Position numbers and translations under genes: made by a program | The notes under the pieces: model-generated | Database searches by the model: none | What the model was told of the DNA's origin: nothing | Seen by the model: only the letters and a program-made list of their open reading frames with translations | DNA from: Shewanella mesophila | GTDB taxonomy: Bacteria; Pseudomonadota; Gammaproteobacteria; Enterobacterales; Shewanellaceae | Reading direction: 5' to 3' | Assembly: GCF_019457515.1 (NCBI RefSeq) | Contig: NZ_CP080421.1 | Coordinates: forward strand, 2,480,001 to 2,544,000 | Length of the DNA: 64,000 nucleotides | Shown: positions 6,159-47,052 of the stretch, one piece after another | Layout of the letters: the number at the start of each line of letters is the position of its first letter | Position numbering within the stretch: position 1 is the first letter of the stretch

Positions 6159-8108
6159 CTATTTTTTTGTCGATTTAGTCACCTTCTTCTTTTGCGAATA
6201 GCGACGCTTCTTAAATTGCCCTTGTGGTGCCTTAATCCCTTGCAATGAGGTGGGCAGCTGAGATCCCGCTTGGATAATCAACTCGCCTAATGACTCGATT
6301 AATGGCTGCATAAAACTCTGATATTTAGCTTCCTTACGACAAATGGCATCTAAATGACTCTCCCATAACGCAGTCATATCAGGCGTCGTCGCCGATTCGG
6401 GCAAACTATTAATCAGCCCCTTGCCTACCTCCGTCGACACGATAGCTTTATCTTGACGAACTAAGAAACCTCGTTTGAACAACAGCTCGATGATGCCAGC
6501 TCGAGTGGCCTCAGTGCCTAAGCCATCGGTATCTTTAAGGATCTTACGAATATCAGGATTAGAAACGTAACGGTTAATGCCCGTCATCGCGGCAAGCAAG
6601 GTCGCATCGGTAAACGCTTTTGGCGGCTGAGTATGCTTCTCAAGCAATTCACCTTGACCCGAGTGCAAGGTTTGCCCCTCTATCAGTCGTGGAAGCAACT
6701 GTAAATCGTCGCTGTCATTATCTCTTTGTGAAGGCTTGTTAGCTGATTTAGGAAACAGCTGTTTCCAGCCTAGAGACTTCTCCTGCTTAGCTTTGGTCTT
6801 AAATCGTCCCTTTTCTATTTCAATTTCCACTTCGGTTTCATGGTACCGATATACAGGATAAAACTGCGCGAGGTATTGCCTGGCGACATGCAGATAGATC
6901 TGTTTCTCAGCTTGGGTTAAACCCGATAAGTTTGCCACCTTTTCGGTGGGAACGATGGCATGGTGTGCATCCACTTTTTTGTCATTCCATGCCTTAGATT
7001 TTATCTTAGGATCGGGGCTATCAATACCTTCGACTAATTCACTCGCCCCTTTTAACACCGCAGCAATAACACTTGGGGCAAGCACAAACTGCTCCTTAGG
7101 AAGGTATCGGCTATCCGACCTAGGATAGGTAATTAACTTATGTTTTTCATAGAGTGACTGGCACGTATCGAGCACAGCCTTTGCGCTCATACTAAATCGC
7201 TTCGCCGCATCAATCTGCAGCGCCGAAAGACTATAGGGTAAAGGTGGGCTTTGTTGTTTATCGCTGCTTTGAAGTGATGTCACCTGAGCGCTTTTATCTG
7301 TGATCCGTCCAACCACGTTCAGGGCTAATCCTCTAGACAAAACTCGCCCATCTTCGTCCATGTAGGGGCGACATGCATCACTGGGCAGCCATTTCGCTTT
7401 GAATGTTTCTTGCTTATCGGTGTAAAGATTTGCAAGCACTTCATAGAAAGGTTTGCTAACAAAGCCAGCAATTGCCTCATCACGACGCACCACAAGTCCC
7501 AGCAGTGGTGTCTGTACCCGACCAACAGATAACACGCCTTGGTAACCCACCTTGCGACCTTGCAAGGTATAGGCGCGAGTCATATTCATGCCGTAAAGCC
7601 AATCAGCCCTTGACCGCGCTAATGCCGATGTCGATAACGGGATAAATTCACGGTTAGATCTAAGTTGCCCCAAGGCTCGCTTCACCGCTGGCGGATTTAA
7701 GTCGCTCACCAACAAGCGCCGAGTTTGATTAAGTTTATTACCTTTAACGCCAAGATGAGCGATGACTTCATCGACGAGCAACTGTCCCTCACGATCGGGA
7801 TCTCCAGCGTTGACCAGCTGAGTCGCCTGCTTCACTAAGCCTCGCAATACCGTCAACTGGCTGCGAGTTTTTGGTTTAGGTTTCATCTTCCACTCTTGTG
7901 GAACGATGGGCAAGTGTTCAAACTTCCATGATTTGAACGCGGCATCATAGCTGTCTGGCTCAGCTTGCTCTAACAAGTGACCAATACACCAAGAAACGCA
8001 ATCGCCATTTGCAGCCGTAATAAACCCCTCCCCCTTTTTCAATGGTTTAGGTAATACATCGGCAATAGCCCTGCCTAGACTCGGTTTCTCTGCGATATAT
8101 AAAATCAT
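6159..8108 (-). CDS. topB: DNA topoisomerase III
   Basis: A 649-residue type IA topoisomerase that decatenates DNA. The N-terminal TOPRIM domain begins MILYIAEKPSLGRAIADVLP and contains the metal-binding AGDPDREGQ (residues 101-109). The catalytic tyrosine is Tyr328 in LITYPRSDSRYL, the same position as in E. coli TopB. The C-terminal tail is lysine-rich (GQFKKRRYSQKKK), suited to DNA binding, and there are no zinc-finger cysteines, which separates it from TopA. Its 3' end abuts the palindromic repeat. The Fur-like box upstream lies about 108 bases from its start, but is nearer the divergent gene. Confidence 0.96.
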   Translation of the reverse strand: MILYIAEKPSLGRAIADVLPKPLKKGEGFITAANGDCVSWCIGHLLEQAEPDSYDAAFKSWKFEHLPIVPQEWKMKPKPKTRSQLTVLRGLVKQATQLVNAGDPDREGQLLVDEVIAHLGVKGNKLNQTRRLLVSDLNPPAVKRALGQLRSNREFIPLSTSALARSRADWLYGMNMTRAYTLQGRKVGYQGVLSVGRVQTPLLGLVVRRDEAIAGFVSKPFYEVLANLYTDKQETFKAKWLPSDACRPYMDEDGRVLSRGLALNVVGRITDKSAQVTSLQSSDKQQSPPLPYSLSALQIDAAKRFSMSAKAVLDTCQSLYEKHKLITYPRSDSRYLPKEQFVLAPSVIAAVLKGASELVEGIDSPDPKIKSKAWNDKKVDAHHAIVPTEKVANLSGLTQAEKQIYLHVARQYLAQFYPVYRYHETEVEIEIEKGRFKTKAKQEKSLGWKQLFPKSANKPSQRDNDSDDLQLLPRLIEGQTLHSGQGELLEKHTQPPKAFTDATLLAAMTGINRYVSNPDIRKILKDTDGLGTEATRAGIIELLFKRGFLVRQDKAIVSTEVGKGLINSLPESATTPDMTALWESHLDAICRKEAKYQSFMQPLIESLGELIIQAGSQLPTSLQGIKAPQGQFKKRRYSQKKKVTKSTKK

Positions 8109-8215
8109 AACCCAACAAATACTGTATAAATTAACAGTAACTTTAACTCAGCAAAGTGAATGGCGCAAACTCAAAATACTTTTGCTGCTTACAACACGTA
8201 CTTTGTAAATTCAAT

Positions 8216-8230
8216 TGAGAATGATTCTCA
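8216..8230. promoter_or_regulatory. Fur box
   Basis: The sequence TGAGAATGATTCTCA is a perfect 7-1-7 palindrome matching the known Fur operator core. It lies between divergent topB and the small membrane protein gene, 82 bases before the latter's ATG. Fur with iron would repress a promoter here, so the downstream gene is probably induced by iron shortage. Confidence 0.8.
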
Positions 8231-8239
8231 TCTAAAGCT

Positions 8240-8278
8240 AATATCTTTAGTTAATACCTTTAGTTAATATCTATCGTT
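8240..8278 (+). repeat. Three 13-bp tandem repeats in the leader of the Fur-linked gene
   Basis: Three adjoining 13-base units: AATATCTTTAGTT, AATACCTTTAGTT and AATATCTATCGTT, then a partial GATATAGTC. The first two differ by one base and the third by two from the first. They lie between the Fur box and the ribosome binding site of the small membrane protein gene. They may be a slippage product or regulator sites. Confidence 0.6.
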
Positions 8279-8311
8279 GATATAGTCACAACCCATTTTG
8301 GGAGTCTAAAA

Positions 8312-8575
8312 ATGAATACCATCACAGCGACTAACAATCGATTGGACCAAGTGCTCATCTATCAATTTTTGTTAGTAGCAGCCGTACTTTTATTAGTAGC
8401 GCCGCTCGCTACAAAAGGCGCTGCGCCAGAGATAGAATTGATGTTTAGCCTACAAATCATACTGACGAGCATAGCTACTTTAGTCGCCATTTTTATTAAG
8501 CAAGCGATTAACCGCACCTCCATCTCGATACTTTTTGGCATTTGGTTACTCGTTTGGGTGACGCATTTGTCCTAG
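8312..8575 (+). CDS. Small three-helix membrane protein, probably iron-regulated
   Basis: An 87-residue protein I do not recognise. Three hydrophobic segments are visible at about residues 15-33, 44-62 and 70-86, so nearly the whole chain is in the inner membrane. There is no cysteine or histidine cluster that would mark a metal site. The start is supported by GGGAG seven bases upstream. A perfect Fur box lies in its promoter region, which makes an iron-starvation role likely. It stands alone, and about 320 bases without a gene follow. Confidence 0.8.
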   Translation: MNTITATNNRLDQVLIYQFLLVAAVLLLVAPLATKGAAPEIELMFSLQIILTSIATLVAIFIKQAINRTSISILFGIWLLVWVTHLS

Positions 8576-16578: not shown

Positions 16579-19266
16579 TTATAACTCTTTAAGCAGCCCT
16601 AGTGCTTCCTCTTGTTGACGGTCATTACCGTCTAATTCAACCTCTTTTAGCAATGCTTTGGCACTATCGATATCATCAATTTCGATATAGGCACGAGCCA
16701 AATCTAATTTTGCATTCACTGCATTCTCTTCGTCATCCACATCGACCATAGATGCATTGCTCATTAGATCATCCAACTCACCCATATCAACATCGAGTTC
16801 TTTATATTGATCGACATCGGTATCTTCTTCATCGGCTTCATTTAAAAGACGATCGATATCAATGAAACCGTTATCTTGCTGGAATGCACTAAGATCATGC
16901 TCATTAACAGTGCGAGCAGGCTTCTTTTTCGACTCTGCAGCATCTAATGCGGCCAAGGCTTCATCGACTGTTAAGCTATCATCATCTTCAATATCCAGTG
17001 ATAACTCATCATCTAAGTCGTCAGTTTCCTTAGTATCATCGAGATCTGAATCTGCAAGAGCGCTATCCCAATCTAGACTATGCTCGTCAGTACGCTTATG
17101 ACCTTTTAGATCATTGAAAAAACCAGACTCGGCTTTGTCTTCTTTTTTATCAACAGCTTCAAGGTCTGCAAGCAATGCATCGAGTGCGACATCGTCAGAT
17201 GAACCTTCAAGGTTAACTTCTGCAATAATCTCTTCAAGCTCAGAGTTTGCCGCATCATCGATAGCAAAAGATTCAAATTCAAGCGCTGGCTTAGCCTCGG
17301 TGGTGTTGTCTGTTACTAGCGGCTCTACATCACTATCGGCTTCACCACTTTCGCTACTCGTCATAACGTCGTCGTTATTATCGCTATCGTCAACTCCACG
17401 ACTGTCACCATGCTCTTTTGCGACGTCCGCTGCAGACAACTCATCTTCCGGTGCGATATCTGCTGTCGGTTCTGTCGCTAATCCAGCAAGTAACTCATCG
17501 ATATCATCAACAGCTGGAGATTCATTGTCATCAGACTCTAATTCAGCCGCAATTTGCGCTGCTACATCGTCACTGTTGTCAACATTAGGCTCGGTAACTT
17601 CTTCAATCAACGCATCTTCTGATTGTGCAGCTTGAGTCGATGTATCAAATTCGGCGAGTAGACTATCTAAATCCGCCTCATCAACCTCTGCATCAACGGC
17701 ATCTAACTCTGCGGCAATAGCCTCGGTTAAATCAACACTTTCATCGCTTGTTTGCTCTTCTGCCCCCATTTGAGGCAAATCAAACTCAGCTAACAGCGCA
17801 TCCAAATCTTCCTCTTCAACTTGGGGCTCTGGATCTTCTGTTTCGGCTGGCAAATCGAAATCGGTCATCATGGCGTCGAAATCAGTTTCTTCTGCCGGCG
17901 TAGTCTGCTCCTCATCTAACGAAGCCATCAAGTCATCTAAATCATTAGCCTCATCGCTCGGTGATTTGGGGGCGTCTAAATCGGCAAGTAATGAATCAAG
18001 ATCATCTTCTTGTGAGCTCTCTGCTGAATTTAGCTCCTCATCTTGCTCACCCATGGCTTCGGCCCACAGATCGTCTAGCGACTGGCCTTCTTCCTCTTCA
18101 AATGAATCCTTTTGTTGACTGTCCCCCGTATCAACAAACACATCATCAACCATATCTAGCTTATCTGAATCATCTGACAGATCGGCCTCAGGTTTTAGCT
18201 CACTGGTATCGACGCTCATTAAAGAGTCTAATGAATCGGATTCATCATCGGTATCAAGATGAACAGCAATCATCTCTTCTTCTGTAGGGGCACTAGCGCC
18301 AAGATCGGGTGTTGGATTCGTTTCAGGTGCCAGCGCTTTGCTATCTTCAACGCCCGCACCCTCTGCAGAGTGACTGCGGCGCTTAAGCGCAAGCCAAACA
18401 ATGGCCAGAAGTAGAATTGCAGGAATAGCGACCGCAAACGCTAGATATAATGGGCTATTCATTAGCGTACGCCAGTAATCACTCGGCGCTTCTTCCGTAG
18501 CAGGTTGAGTCGCCGTCGTTAGCTGCTCACGTAACAACTTAGCCTCATTTGACAGTTCGGCATTCTGCTCCTTTTGTACTAACAGTGCTTCTTCAAGTTC
18601 AGTGATGCGCCCATTTAACTCATCAATCTTGCCTTGTAACATATCAGAGTCATTTGACCCCAAATTTAACTTATCTTGTGCTCGCGCTAATTCATCGGTT
18701 AACGACAAGTTGCGCGCTTGCTGTGCTTCTAACTTGACAGTTAACTCTTCCAGCTGTTTTTGAGTTTCAACACCGACAAGAACTGGCGCGTTATCAACCT
18801 TTGCTGGCGGTTGGTTCGTGGTGGCTTGCTCGGCTTTTGTGGGAGTCTCTTTCTCTGCTGCGGCAACATTCTTAGCTTGTTGCCAGCCTTTATCATTACG
18901 CTGAGCTTGCTGCTTTGCAAGACTATTGGGGATCGCCGCCATCACCTCTTTAGAGGGAATAAGCAATATCATGCCCCTCTCAAGACTATTGTAATTATCA
19001 CTGGTAAAGGCGTGTGGATTGGCATCATAAATAGCTGCCATCACTTGATAAATAGTGACACTGGCATCGGGTCTCATTTTCTGAGCGATACTCCAGAAGG
19101 TATCGGCTGAAGTCGTCGGCCCATACTGGCGCAACGTTTGACGACTTTCGCCATCTGGTCCTGTAATTTTAAGCGGCTCAGCCGCAGATAAAATTCCCGA
19201 TGTTGATGCAAGGATCACGAGTGCGCTGGCTAAGAGACCAACAAGATGCGATGTGCGAAAGTTCAT
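16579..19266 (-). CDS. fimV: FimV/HubP-family polar organiser protein
   Basis: An 895-residue envelope protein. A signal peptide (about residues 1-28) is followed by a periplasmic LysM-like domain (DTFWSIAQKMRP to LERGMILLIPSKE), a coiled-coil segment, a membrane helix near 285 (YLAFAVAIPAILLLAIVWLAL) and a very acidic cytoplasmic part with repeated DLDSLLAEFD-like blocks. The C-terminal FimV domain (LDLARAYIEIDDIDSAKALL) is TPR-like. Relatives act as polar landmarks for type IV pili, flagella and chemoreceptors (FimV in Pseudomonas, HubP in Vibrio and Shewanella). The start with AAAGGGAAG eight bases upstream is preferred to an ATG 15 codons earlier because it places the signal peptide first. 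Confidence 0.92.
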   Translation of the reverse strand: MNFRTSHLVGLLASALVILASTSGILSAAEPLKITGPDGESRQTLRQYGPTTSADTFWSIAQKMRPDASVTIYQVMAAIYDANPHAFTSDNYNSLERGMILLIPSKEVMAAIPNSLAKQQAQRNDKGWQQAKNVAAAEKETPTKAEQATTNQPPAKVDNAPVLVGVETQKQLEELTVKLEAQQARNLSLTDELARAQDKLNLGSNDSDMLQGKIDELNGRITELEEALLVQKEQNAELSNEAKLLREQLTTATQPATEEAPSDYWRTLMNSPLYLAFAVAIPAILLLAIVWLALKRRSHSAEGAGVEDSKALAPETNPTPDLGASAPTEEEMIAVHLDTDDESDSLDSLMSVDTSELKPEADLSDDSDKLDMVDDVFVDTGDSQQKDSFEEEEGQSLDDLWAEAMGEQDEELNSAESSQEDDLDSLLADLDAPKSPSDEANDLDDLMASLDEEQTTPAEETDFDAMMTDFDLPAETEDPEPQVEEEDLDALLAEFDLPQMGAEEQTSDESVDLTEAIAAELDAVDAEVDEADLDSLLAEFDTSTQAAQSEDALIEEVTEPNVDNSDDVAAQIAAELESDDNESPAVDDIDELLAGLATEPTADIAPEDELSAADVAKEHGDSRGVDDSDNNDDVMTSSESGEADSDVEPLVTDNTTEAKPALEFESFAIDDAANSELEEIIAEVNLEGSSDDVALDALLADLEAVDKKEDKAESGFFNDLKGHKRTDEHSLDWDSALADSDLDDTKETDDLDDELSLDIEDDDSLTVDEALAALDAAESKKKPARTVNEHDLSAFQQDNGFIDIDRLLNEADEEDTDVDQYKELDVDMGELDDLMSNASMVDVDDEENAVNAKLDLARAYIEIDDIDSAKALLKEVELDGNDRQQEEALGLLKEL

Positions 19267-46497: not shown

Positions 46498-47052
46498 ATG
46501 ACGGCAAGTAACGGATCAAGTCAACACAAAAACAGAACCTTTTGGAACAAGCTACTATTTCCCCAAACAAGGTTACGACGCTGGCTTAGAGATCTGCTGC
46601 TGTTTGGTATCATCGCTTTTTTAGCGCTTTCTTATCAGCAACGTCACATGATTAATGGTCACGCACCAAGACTCTCGAGCCTAACCATTGCTGGCGCACC
46701 TATTTCTCTATCAGAAACAGAGCCGACACTGGTGTACTTTTGGGGTACTTGGTGCCCAGTTTGCCGTGTCACCTCACCTATGGTGAACACGCTTGTCGAT
46801 GATCATCATGTGGTCACGATTGCGGTTGGATCAGGCTCTGATAAAGAGATTGCACAGTTTATGCGTGAGCATGATTATCAATTTGAGGTCATTAATGACG
46901 ATAAAAACATACACCAACAATGGGGGGCGATGGCTTTTCCGGCGATCTATATTATCGATCCCCAAGGTGACATACGCTTTGTCACTTCAGGCGTTACCAG
47001 TAACATAGGTCTAAAGCTGCGGCTACTTATCGCGAGCGTCTACACTAATTGA
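46498..47052 (+). CDS. Membrane-anchored thioredoxin-like disulfide protein (ScsD/TlpA-like)
   Basis: A 184-residue protein with an N-terminal basic region, one membrane helix (about residues 32-50) and a periplasmic thioredoxin fold with the active site GTWCPVC (residues about 83-89). CPVC and the short chain fit ScsD-like or TlpA-like proteins that reduce or oxidise envelope thiols. The cis-proline-like stretch AFPAIYIIDPQG is present. Its 3' end overlaps the convergent response regulator by 13 bases. Partner unknown. Confidence 0.85.
   Translation: MTASNGSSQHKNRTFWNKLLFPQTRLRRWLRDLLLFGIIAFLALSYQQRHMINGHAPRLSSLTIAGAPISLSETEPTLVYFWGTWCPVCRVTSPMVNTLVDDHHVVTIAVGSGSDKEIAQFMREHDYQFEVINDDKNIHQQWGAMAFPAIYIIDPQGDIRFVTSGVTSNIGLKLRLLIASVYTN

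Follow-up and report, generated by a model that had tools for sequence, protein, structure and literature searches.

A predicted Fur-repressed gene for a small, three-helix membrane protein in Shewanella

The stretch of DNA analyzed here (64,000 nucleotides of the Shewanella mesophila genome, hereafter the window) carries a Fur-type box ahead of an open reading frame (ORF) for an 87-residue protein. An earlier note on this DNA had predicted a Fur-controlled iron-starvation gene at this position, and both the presence of the box in all 68 Shewanella genomes found to carry the gene and published data for the neighbor of its MR-1 ortholog, SO_3063, fit that prediction. Fur repression of the locus, as judged from sequence comparison and published expression at the MR-1 locus, is well supported, and we hold it with high confidence. 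That the product acts as an accessory or regulatory subunit in iron acquisition or in adaptation to iron starvation is a tentative proposal. In the explanation as a whole, namely a Fur-repressed unit with an accessory inner-membrane protein for iron starvation, we have moderate confidence. The features of the locus are listed in Table 1.

Table 1. Features of the locus and their positions in the window.
Feature	Position	Strand	Basis
topB, DNA topoisomerase III, divergent neighbor marking the orthologous locus	6159-8108	-	Pfam/NCBIfam, locus comparison
LexA-like box CTGTATAAATTAACAG of topB	8122-8137	-	pattern upstream of topB in 129/129 genomes
TGTAAA element	8204-8209	+	97-100% per column, 68 carriers
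19-mer Fur-type box around the palindrome core	8214-8232	+	sequence
Predicted -35 hexamer TTGAGA, within the Fur box	8215-8220	+	promoter prediction, column conservation
Fur-box core, perfect 7-1-7 palindrome TGAGAATGATTCTCA	8216-8230	+	68/68 carrier genomes with box
Predicted -10 hexamer TAATAT, spacer 18	8239-8244	+	promoter prediction; spacer 18 best in 39/68 carriers
13-bp tandem repeat, 3.5 copies	8239-8283	+	Tandem Repeats Finder, 84% matches, period 13
Shine-Dalgarno-like GGGAG	8300-8304	+	sequence
Predicted three-helix inner-membrane protein of 87 residues, SO_3062 ortholog group	8312-8575	+	ORF, family searches, AlphaFold2, alignment, dN/dS

The palindrome that had been described ahead of the ORF is perfect, as stated, and TGAGAATGATTCTCA occurs once in the window. 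With up to three mismatches, it gave seven strand-matches at four places in the window, compared with a mean of 2.66 in shuffled sequences, and at least seven were reached in two of 100 shuffles. Other box-like places in the window lie at 6628 within topB, at 46866 within a coding frame, and, with three mismatches, at 17516. In a scan of the whole genome (4.32 Mb), the palindrome is one of two exact matches to TTGNGAATNATTNTCA; by arithmetic, chance would place any given 15-mer about 0.008 times on the two strands of the genome together. With up to two mismatches, there were 173 matches versus 135 for the reversed control, and only near-exact matches to TTGNGAATNATTNTCA are therefore meaningful. 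Scored against a degenerate 19-mer consensus that we wrote ourselves, the window box reaches 17/19.

The predicted -35 hexamer falls inside the Fur box, and the -10 hexamer follows 18 nt on. Promoter-type sites of this kind numbered five versus 2.7 expected by chance, that is, about twice the expectation, such that promoter prediction alone is near chance; the predicted promoter gains weight from the conservation of the hexamer columns across the carriers. TGTAAA ends 5 bases before the -35 hexamer, is as conserved as the Fur core over the 68 carriers, and also occurs upstream of some other Fur-type boxes. The 13-bp repeat begins exactly at the predicted -10 hexamer and thereby multiplies -10-like hexamers. 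In the closest carrier, S. algidipiscicola (L023, dropped from the carrier table as a duplicate of genome G065 in protein and promoter), whose protein is 74% identical, the distance from box to start is 58 nt, compared with 98 nt in the window. The difference corresponds to approximately three repeat units, which for this reason look like a lineage-specific expansion. The 13-base tandem repeats reported earlier are thus real, but they are neither conserved nor a general feature of the locus; by this comparison, the repeat seems confined to the lineage of the window, and a general importance of the repeats for regulation was rejected on the same ground.

By sequence and profile searches, 63 of the 129 Shewanella genomes examined have a copy of the gene; 58 copies are strong matches, four are weak, and one (G144) is broken by stops. 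A shorter version, of 73 to 94 residues as listed, occurs in another five genomes, again behind a box in the corresponding position; the longest listed frame begins within its own box and is probably shorter. This brings the carriers to 68 of 129, the gene being absent from about half of the genomes. Compared with the family profile by hhalign, one of the four weak copies scored a probability of 93.3% (E = 2.7e-7) and one of the five short versions 79.8% (E = 1.5e-5). Matches in G094 and G120 were excluded (E near 0.01, with a stop), and four chance matches with a stop inside each match (L080 to L083) were dropped from the carrier table. All 58 strong copies, and the broken one as well, are neighbors of topB and diverge from it. 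Outside Shewanella, nothing convincing was found in the samples searched. A search of 394 genomes from the order, Shewanella among them, with at most 13 candidates scored per genome, yielded five matches of marginal strength (E = 4e-4 to 7e-3); internal stops interrupt four of these, and the fifth covers 36 residues of a 426-residue frame. A search of 60 genomes gave one further match (G053, E = 0.008, in a 57-residue frame), and a scan of a contig collection picked up a single true relative, along with a Clostridiales contig bearing a frame that we read as PlsY. The non-Shewanella matches were taken as chance and rejected as family members.

The small size of the ORF and its lack of a family match invite the suspicion that it is not a real gene and that the box controls a regulatory RNA, if anything. 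We consider this scarcely credible. The frame is open in 67 of the 68 carriers, and in a run on 15 chosen pairs, with G144 and the five short versions left out, dN/dS was 0.04 to 0.27 in 13. The other two pairs, with values of 0 and 0.36 at low divergence, are uninformative or higher and are the part of these data that would fit a spurious frame. The helix-3 motif LF..W...W shows no variation across 20 aligned members, and Rfam gave no match in the window or in two further loci, L074 and L062. The dN/dS values indicate that the ORF is under purifying selection, and a spurious ORF was rejected on these values.

Comparison across genomes shows that the box is genuine. All 68 carriers have TGTAAA-N5-TTGnGAA-N3-TTnTnA, or a close variant, upstream of the gene, with 26 to 29 of the 29 positions matched (all 29 in 58 carriers). 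This 29-position score was written from the carrier sequences, so the separation that it gives is partly by construction. In a fairer, held-out test, a matrix was trained on 19 carriers and tested on the other 49, training and test carriers being relatives. All 49 scored at least 22.1, with the broken copy G144 lowest. The matrix was also run on 63 gene-less stretches upstream of topB, from the 61 non-carrier genomes and from the topB regions of G030 and G075, which have the gene elsewhere; these stretches are about 1,500 bases long, except for that of G064 (357 in total), and the first 405 bases at most were used. Two of them scored 22.1 or more (42.2 and 26.6), and the next reached 7.3. The two high-scoring stretches, one with a good box (G072) and one with a decayed box (G013), have no ORF, and the box is thus found upstream of topB in two of the 61 non-carriers. 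The topB of G013 is 97% identical to that of the window over 200 residues, and both boxes look like remnants after gene loss.

Separation was less clean without TGTAAA. With a box-only matrix, one further gene-less stretch, L158, reached the weakest carrier. With the plain, self-written 19-mer consensus over 840 bases, carriers (14 to 18) and gene-less stretches (11 to 17) overlapped, six of the 63 gene-less stretches scoring 15 to 17, one of which is the G072 remnant. TGTAAA is therefore needed for a clean separation. A close relative that retains the gene but has lost the box would, according to the earlier note, speak against its reading; among the 68 carriers, there is none without the box.

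The box lies 107 nt from the start of topB, in the shared intergenic region, and one may ask whether it serves topB, with the small ORF as a bystander. We regard this as very improbable, and ownership by topB is already largely refuted. topB is present in all 129 genomes. The small gene is missing from 61, and in 59 of those no box occurs in the scanned stretch upstream of topB. In G030 and G075, where topB and the small gene are on separate contigs, the box accompanies the small gene. Moreover, topB has a box of its own: the LexA-like pattern CTG[GT]A-N8-CAG occurs less than 200 bases upstream of it in 129 of 129 Shewanella genomes. In Vibrio parahaemolyticus, topB is among the LexA targets tested by EMSA, according to the accessible text of PMC3323433. 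The comparison of genomes thus assigns the box to the small gene and not to divergent topB; as a topB element it was rejected, given its absence from the scanned stretch in 59 gene-less genomes and its move with the relocated gene. With a LexA-like and a Fur-type box back to back, the intergenic region carries one switch of the SOS type and one of the iron type.

The genome encodes one FUR-family protein (a single PF01475 match). Its best PDB matches, 2w57 and 8j6w, are named ferric uptake regulation protein, and we take them to be the Fur proteins of V. cholerae and E. coli; by these matches, the sole family member is a true Fur, which leaves no FUR paralog to which the box could belong instead. 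At least 15 matches to TTGNGAATNATTNTCA with at most one mismatch were listed in the same genome, most of them, by reading, within coding frames. Among those listed, one is beside an ORF like bacterioferritin-associated ferredoxin (bfd-like) and one beside an iron-binding-protein-like (fbpA-like) ORF, both named by reading. Another of the listed matches stands upstream of a membrane-like ORF: at L179 (1522-1854), a hydrophobic, 110-residue frame with no Pfam match follows the palindrome TTGATAATCATTATCA and is possibly a second Fur-controlled membrane protein.

In four genomes, the TGTAAA-extended box was found, among other sites, ahead of receptor-like proteins, one porin-like protein, a short ORF, and a PepSY_TM locus. 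Matches to the reversed control amounted to between a third and three fifths of those to the real pattern (2/6, 6/10, 4/11, and 3/5), and the other matches look like chance. The short ORF, at L226 in MR-1, is presumably SO_4740/DUF2061. At the PepSY_TM locus of MR-1 (L168, 1490-3016), two small membrane-like ORFs, neither with a Pfam family over the cut-off, precede the PepSY_TM gene, with TGTAAA and a Fur-type box upstream. L168 and L226 thus likewise have a short membrane-like ORF behind a TGTAAA-like element and a Fur-type box. The first small ORF of L168 differs from the 87-residue protein, with an hhalign probability of 0.3% against the family of the latter, and kinship between them was rejected on this value.

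The ortholog in MR-1 can be named from published sites. Locus L074 of genome G106 contains both upstream sites printed for SO3062 and SO3063 in PMC3127752, which identifies the ortholog as SO_3062; two other loci contain the first site without the second. The palindrome of SO_3062 has one mismatch. SO_3063, an amino-acid carrier gene (TIGR00835), lies approximately 290 bases downstream and has no Fur-type box of its own (best 12/19). In the accessible parts of the respective studies, SO_3063 is up 4.16-fold in a fur mutant (PMC2386053), and its value, with the columns as we read them, climbs to 4.68 under iron depletion and drops on repletion (PMC2667191). Read-through from the SO_3062 promoter is the simplest reading of this response; alternatively, the 290-nt gap could contain a promoter that escaped notice. 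The leader of the symporter gene, about 290 to 360 bases long in L074 and L062, has a 3' half that looks well conserved by eye in five loci. SO_3062 itself is unnamed in the main texts, supplements aside, of four papers with lists of Fur-responsive or iron-responsive genes (PMC2386053, PMC2667191, PMC7732582, and PMC12442407). The accessible passages of the MR-1 literature that name SO3062, as found by full-text search, call it hypothetical and give no function.

The conserved TGTAAA raises the matter of a second input, that is, Fur repression combined with an activator (e.g., SsoR/SO2426) at TGTAAA. The element stands at a fixed distance, and expression of SO_3062 as well as SO_3063 drops in the SO2426 mutant; according to the accessible text of PMC2535785, SO3062 under chromate was at 0.48, 0.15, 0.16, 0.14, and 0.21 of wild type at five time points and at 1.21, starred, at the sixth. 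Against this stand the published SO2426 motif CAAAANCAGCAAAA (PMC3127752), which is unlike TGTAAA, and the simpler option of an AT-rich UP element, and we consider such dual control possible but doubtful. The SO2426-binding site ATAAATCAGGAGAA predicted before SO3062 in PMC3127752 (L074, 1944-1957) may be an artefact of motif search, since it includes the apparent Shine-Dalgarno sequence of SO3062.

The ORF in the window has an ATG preceded by GGGAG. AlphaFold2, run with two input sequences, gave helices at residues 3 to 34, 39 to 63, and 68 to 86, in a model of moderate quality (mean pLDDT 75.6, pTM 0.49), and the modeled helices agree with the three-helix membrane protein described earlier. 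The description of a protein without a known family also held: Pfam gave no match up to E = 1, and the sole NCBIfam match had E = 0.19 and 10.1 bits, against a cut-off of 993. With 20 family members as queries, Pfam returned nine weak families, one member each, none of which fits, and a sequence search of the PDB with the family found nothing. Foldseek with the AlphaFold model gave no significant structural match (best E-value 2.3), and a second-look structural search gave unrelated helical proteins with a best Z of 8.0, within the stated noise of the tool.

In the 20 aligned members, L20, L74, F75, W78, and W82 are invariant, the last four forming the helix-3 motif LF..W...W, which by reading is looser in the weak and short versions. 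Positive charge at the N-terminus and in the loop between helices 2 and 3 suggests, by the positive-inside rule, a predicted topology with these parts inside and the helix 1-2 loop and the C-terminus outside. In no column is an acidic residue or a cysteine shared by as many as 15 of the 20 members. With an invariant LF..W...W and no such residue, the protein is probably neither an enzyme nor a transporter by itself. A histidine in helix 1, present in 16 of the 20 members and replaced by Q in the window protein, may have a role as a ligand.

Possible partners were sought by counting neighbors at 63 loci (flanks of 1.5 to 3 kb, ORFs of at least 90 residues, clustered by BLAST). A symporter gene follows on the same strand at 11 loci and a TonB-dependent receptor gene at 4, so that hints of a partner come from 11 and 4 genomes, respectively. 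The receptor gene begins 26 bases past the small ORF, within a base, at two loci with a fixed start. One of the four receptors was scanned and scored over the TIGR01783 siderophore-receptor cut-off, with RhtA best but below its cut-off. Of the remaining 48 loci, 47 continue with an ORF on the opposite strand and one (G107) with a transposase-like ORF. The small gene is present in 27 of 39 genomes with an NIS siderophore synthetase (PF04183), versus 41 of 90 without (Fisher p = 0.02, ignoring phylogeny). The genome of the window has no PF04183 match, from which it follows that the small gene is independent of that pathway.

We also considered that the protein could be an iron-sparing helper of a respiratory complex, similar to a small oxidase subunit, which would retune electron transport when heme and Fe-S proteins are short. 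Its three-helix shape of about 90 residues and the helix-1 histidine would suit such a role, the second-look search listed cytochrome bo3 chains (7n9z_I and 7cub_D) with a Z of 5.4, in the noise range, and S. oneidensis grows by respiration only and depends on hemoproteins (PMC12442407, accessible text). The absence of a significant Foldseek match speaks against it, as do the replacement of the histidine in the window protein and the neighbors: co-directional genes encode a siderophore-receptor-like protein and a symporter, and no respiratory gene was recognized in the 1.5- to 3-kb flanks, judged by reading with few genes named by search. We therefore regard a respiratory helper as unlikely and favor an accessory role in uptake.

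Under the preferred reading, the locus would be a Fur-repressed unit, of one gene in the window. With iron present, Fe2+-Fur would occupy the 7-1-7 palindrome over the -35 hexamer and spacer and block RNA polymerase; on iron starvation, as sequence, comparison, and the published expression at the MR-1 locus suggest, the gene would be derepressed. Its product, a predicted inner-membrane protein of 87 residues with three helices, N-terminus in and C-terminus out, may then pack against a larger inner-membrane protein of iron acquisition or iron-starvation adaptation. A broader version is a conjecture that we rate as rather unlikely: this family of 70- to 95-residue membrane proteins, to date found only in Shewanella, would be a dedicated iron-starvation subunit that retunes an inner-membrane complex of iron uptake or energy coupling. 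Its control would lie with a composite of TGTAAA and Fur box, and promoters bearing that composite would make up a sub-class of Shewanella Fur promoters that receive a second input. The iron-starvation responses of metal-respiring bacteria are known mostly through large proteins, and the candidate here is a small one, of an unnamed family in about half of the genus, with a Fur-type box in all carriers found. The locus also points to an unrecognized conserved element beside some Shewanella Fur boxes.

The arrangement shares with the Fur regulon of S. oneidensis a 7-1-7 palindrome over the predicted -35 hexamer, a single Fur in the genome, and, for the MR-1 neighbor SO_3063, a published response to iron and fur. 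It differs in the product of the predicted target, which belongs to no known family of receptors, transporters, or siderophore enzymes. Small accessory subunits of membrane proteins include CydX, AcrZ, MgtS, KdpF, and CyoD. Like these, the 87-residue protein is predicted to be a short, hydrophobic inner-membrane protein without evident catalytic residues; unlike them, it has no sequence match in the libraries searched, and its partnership with a larger protein is putative.
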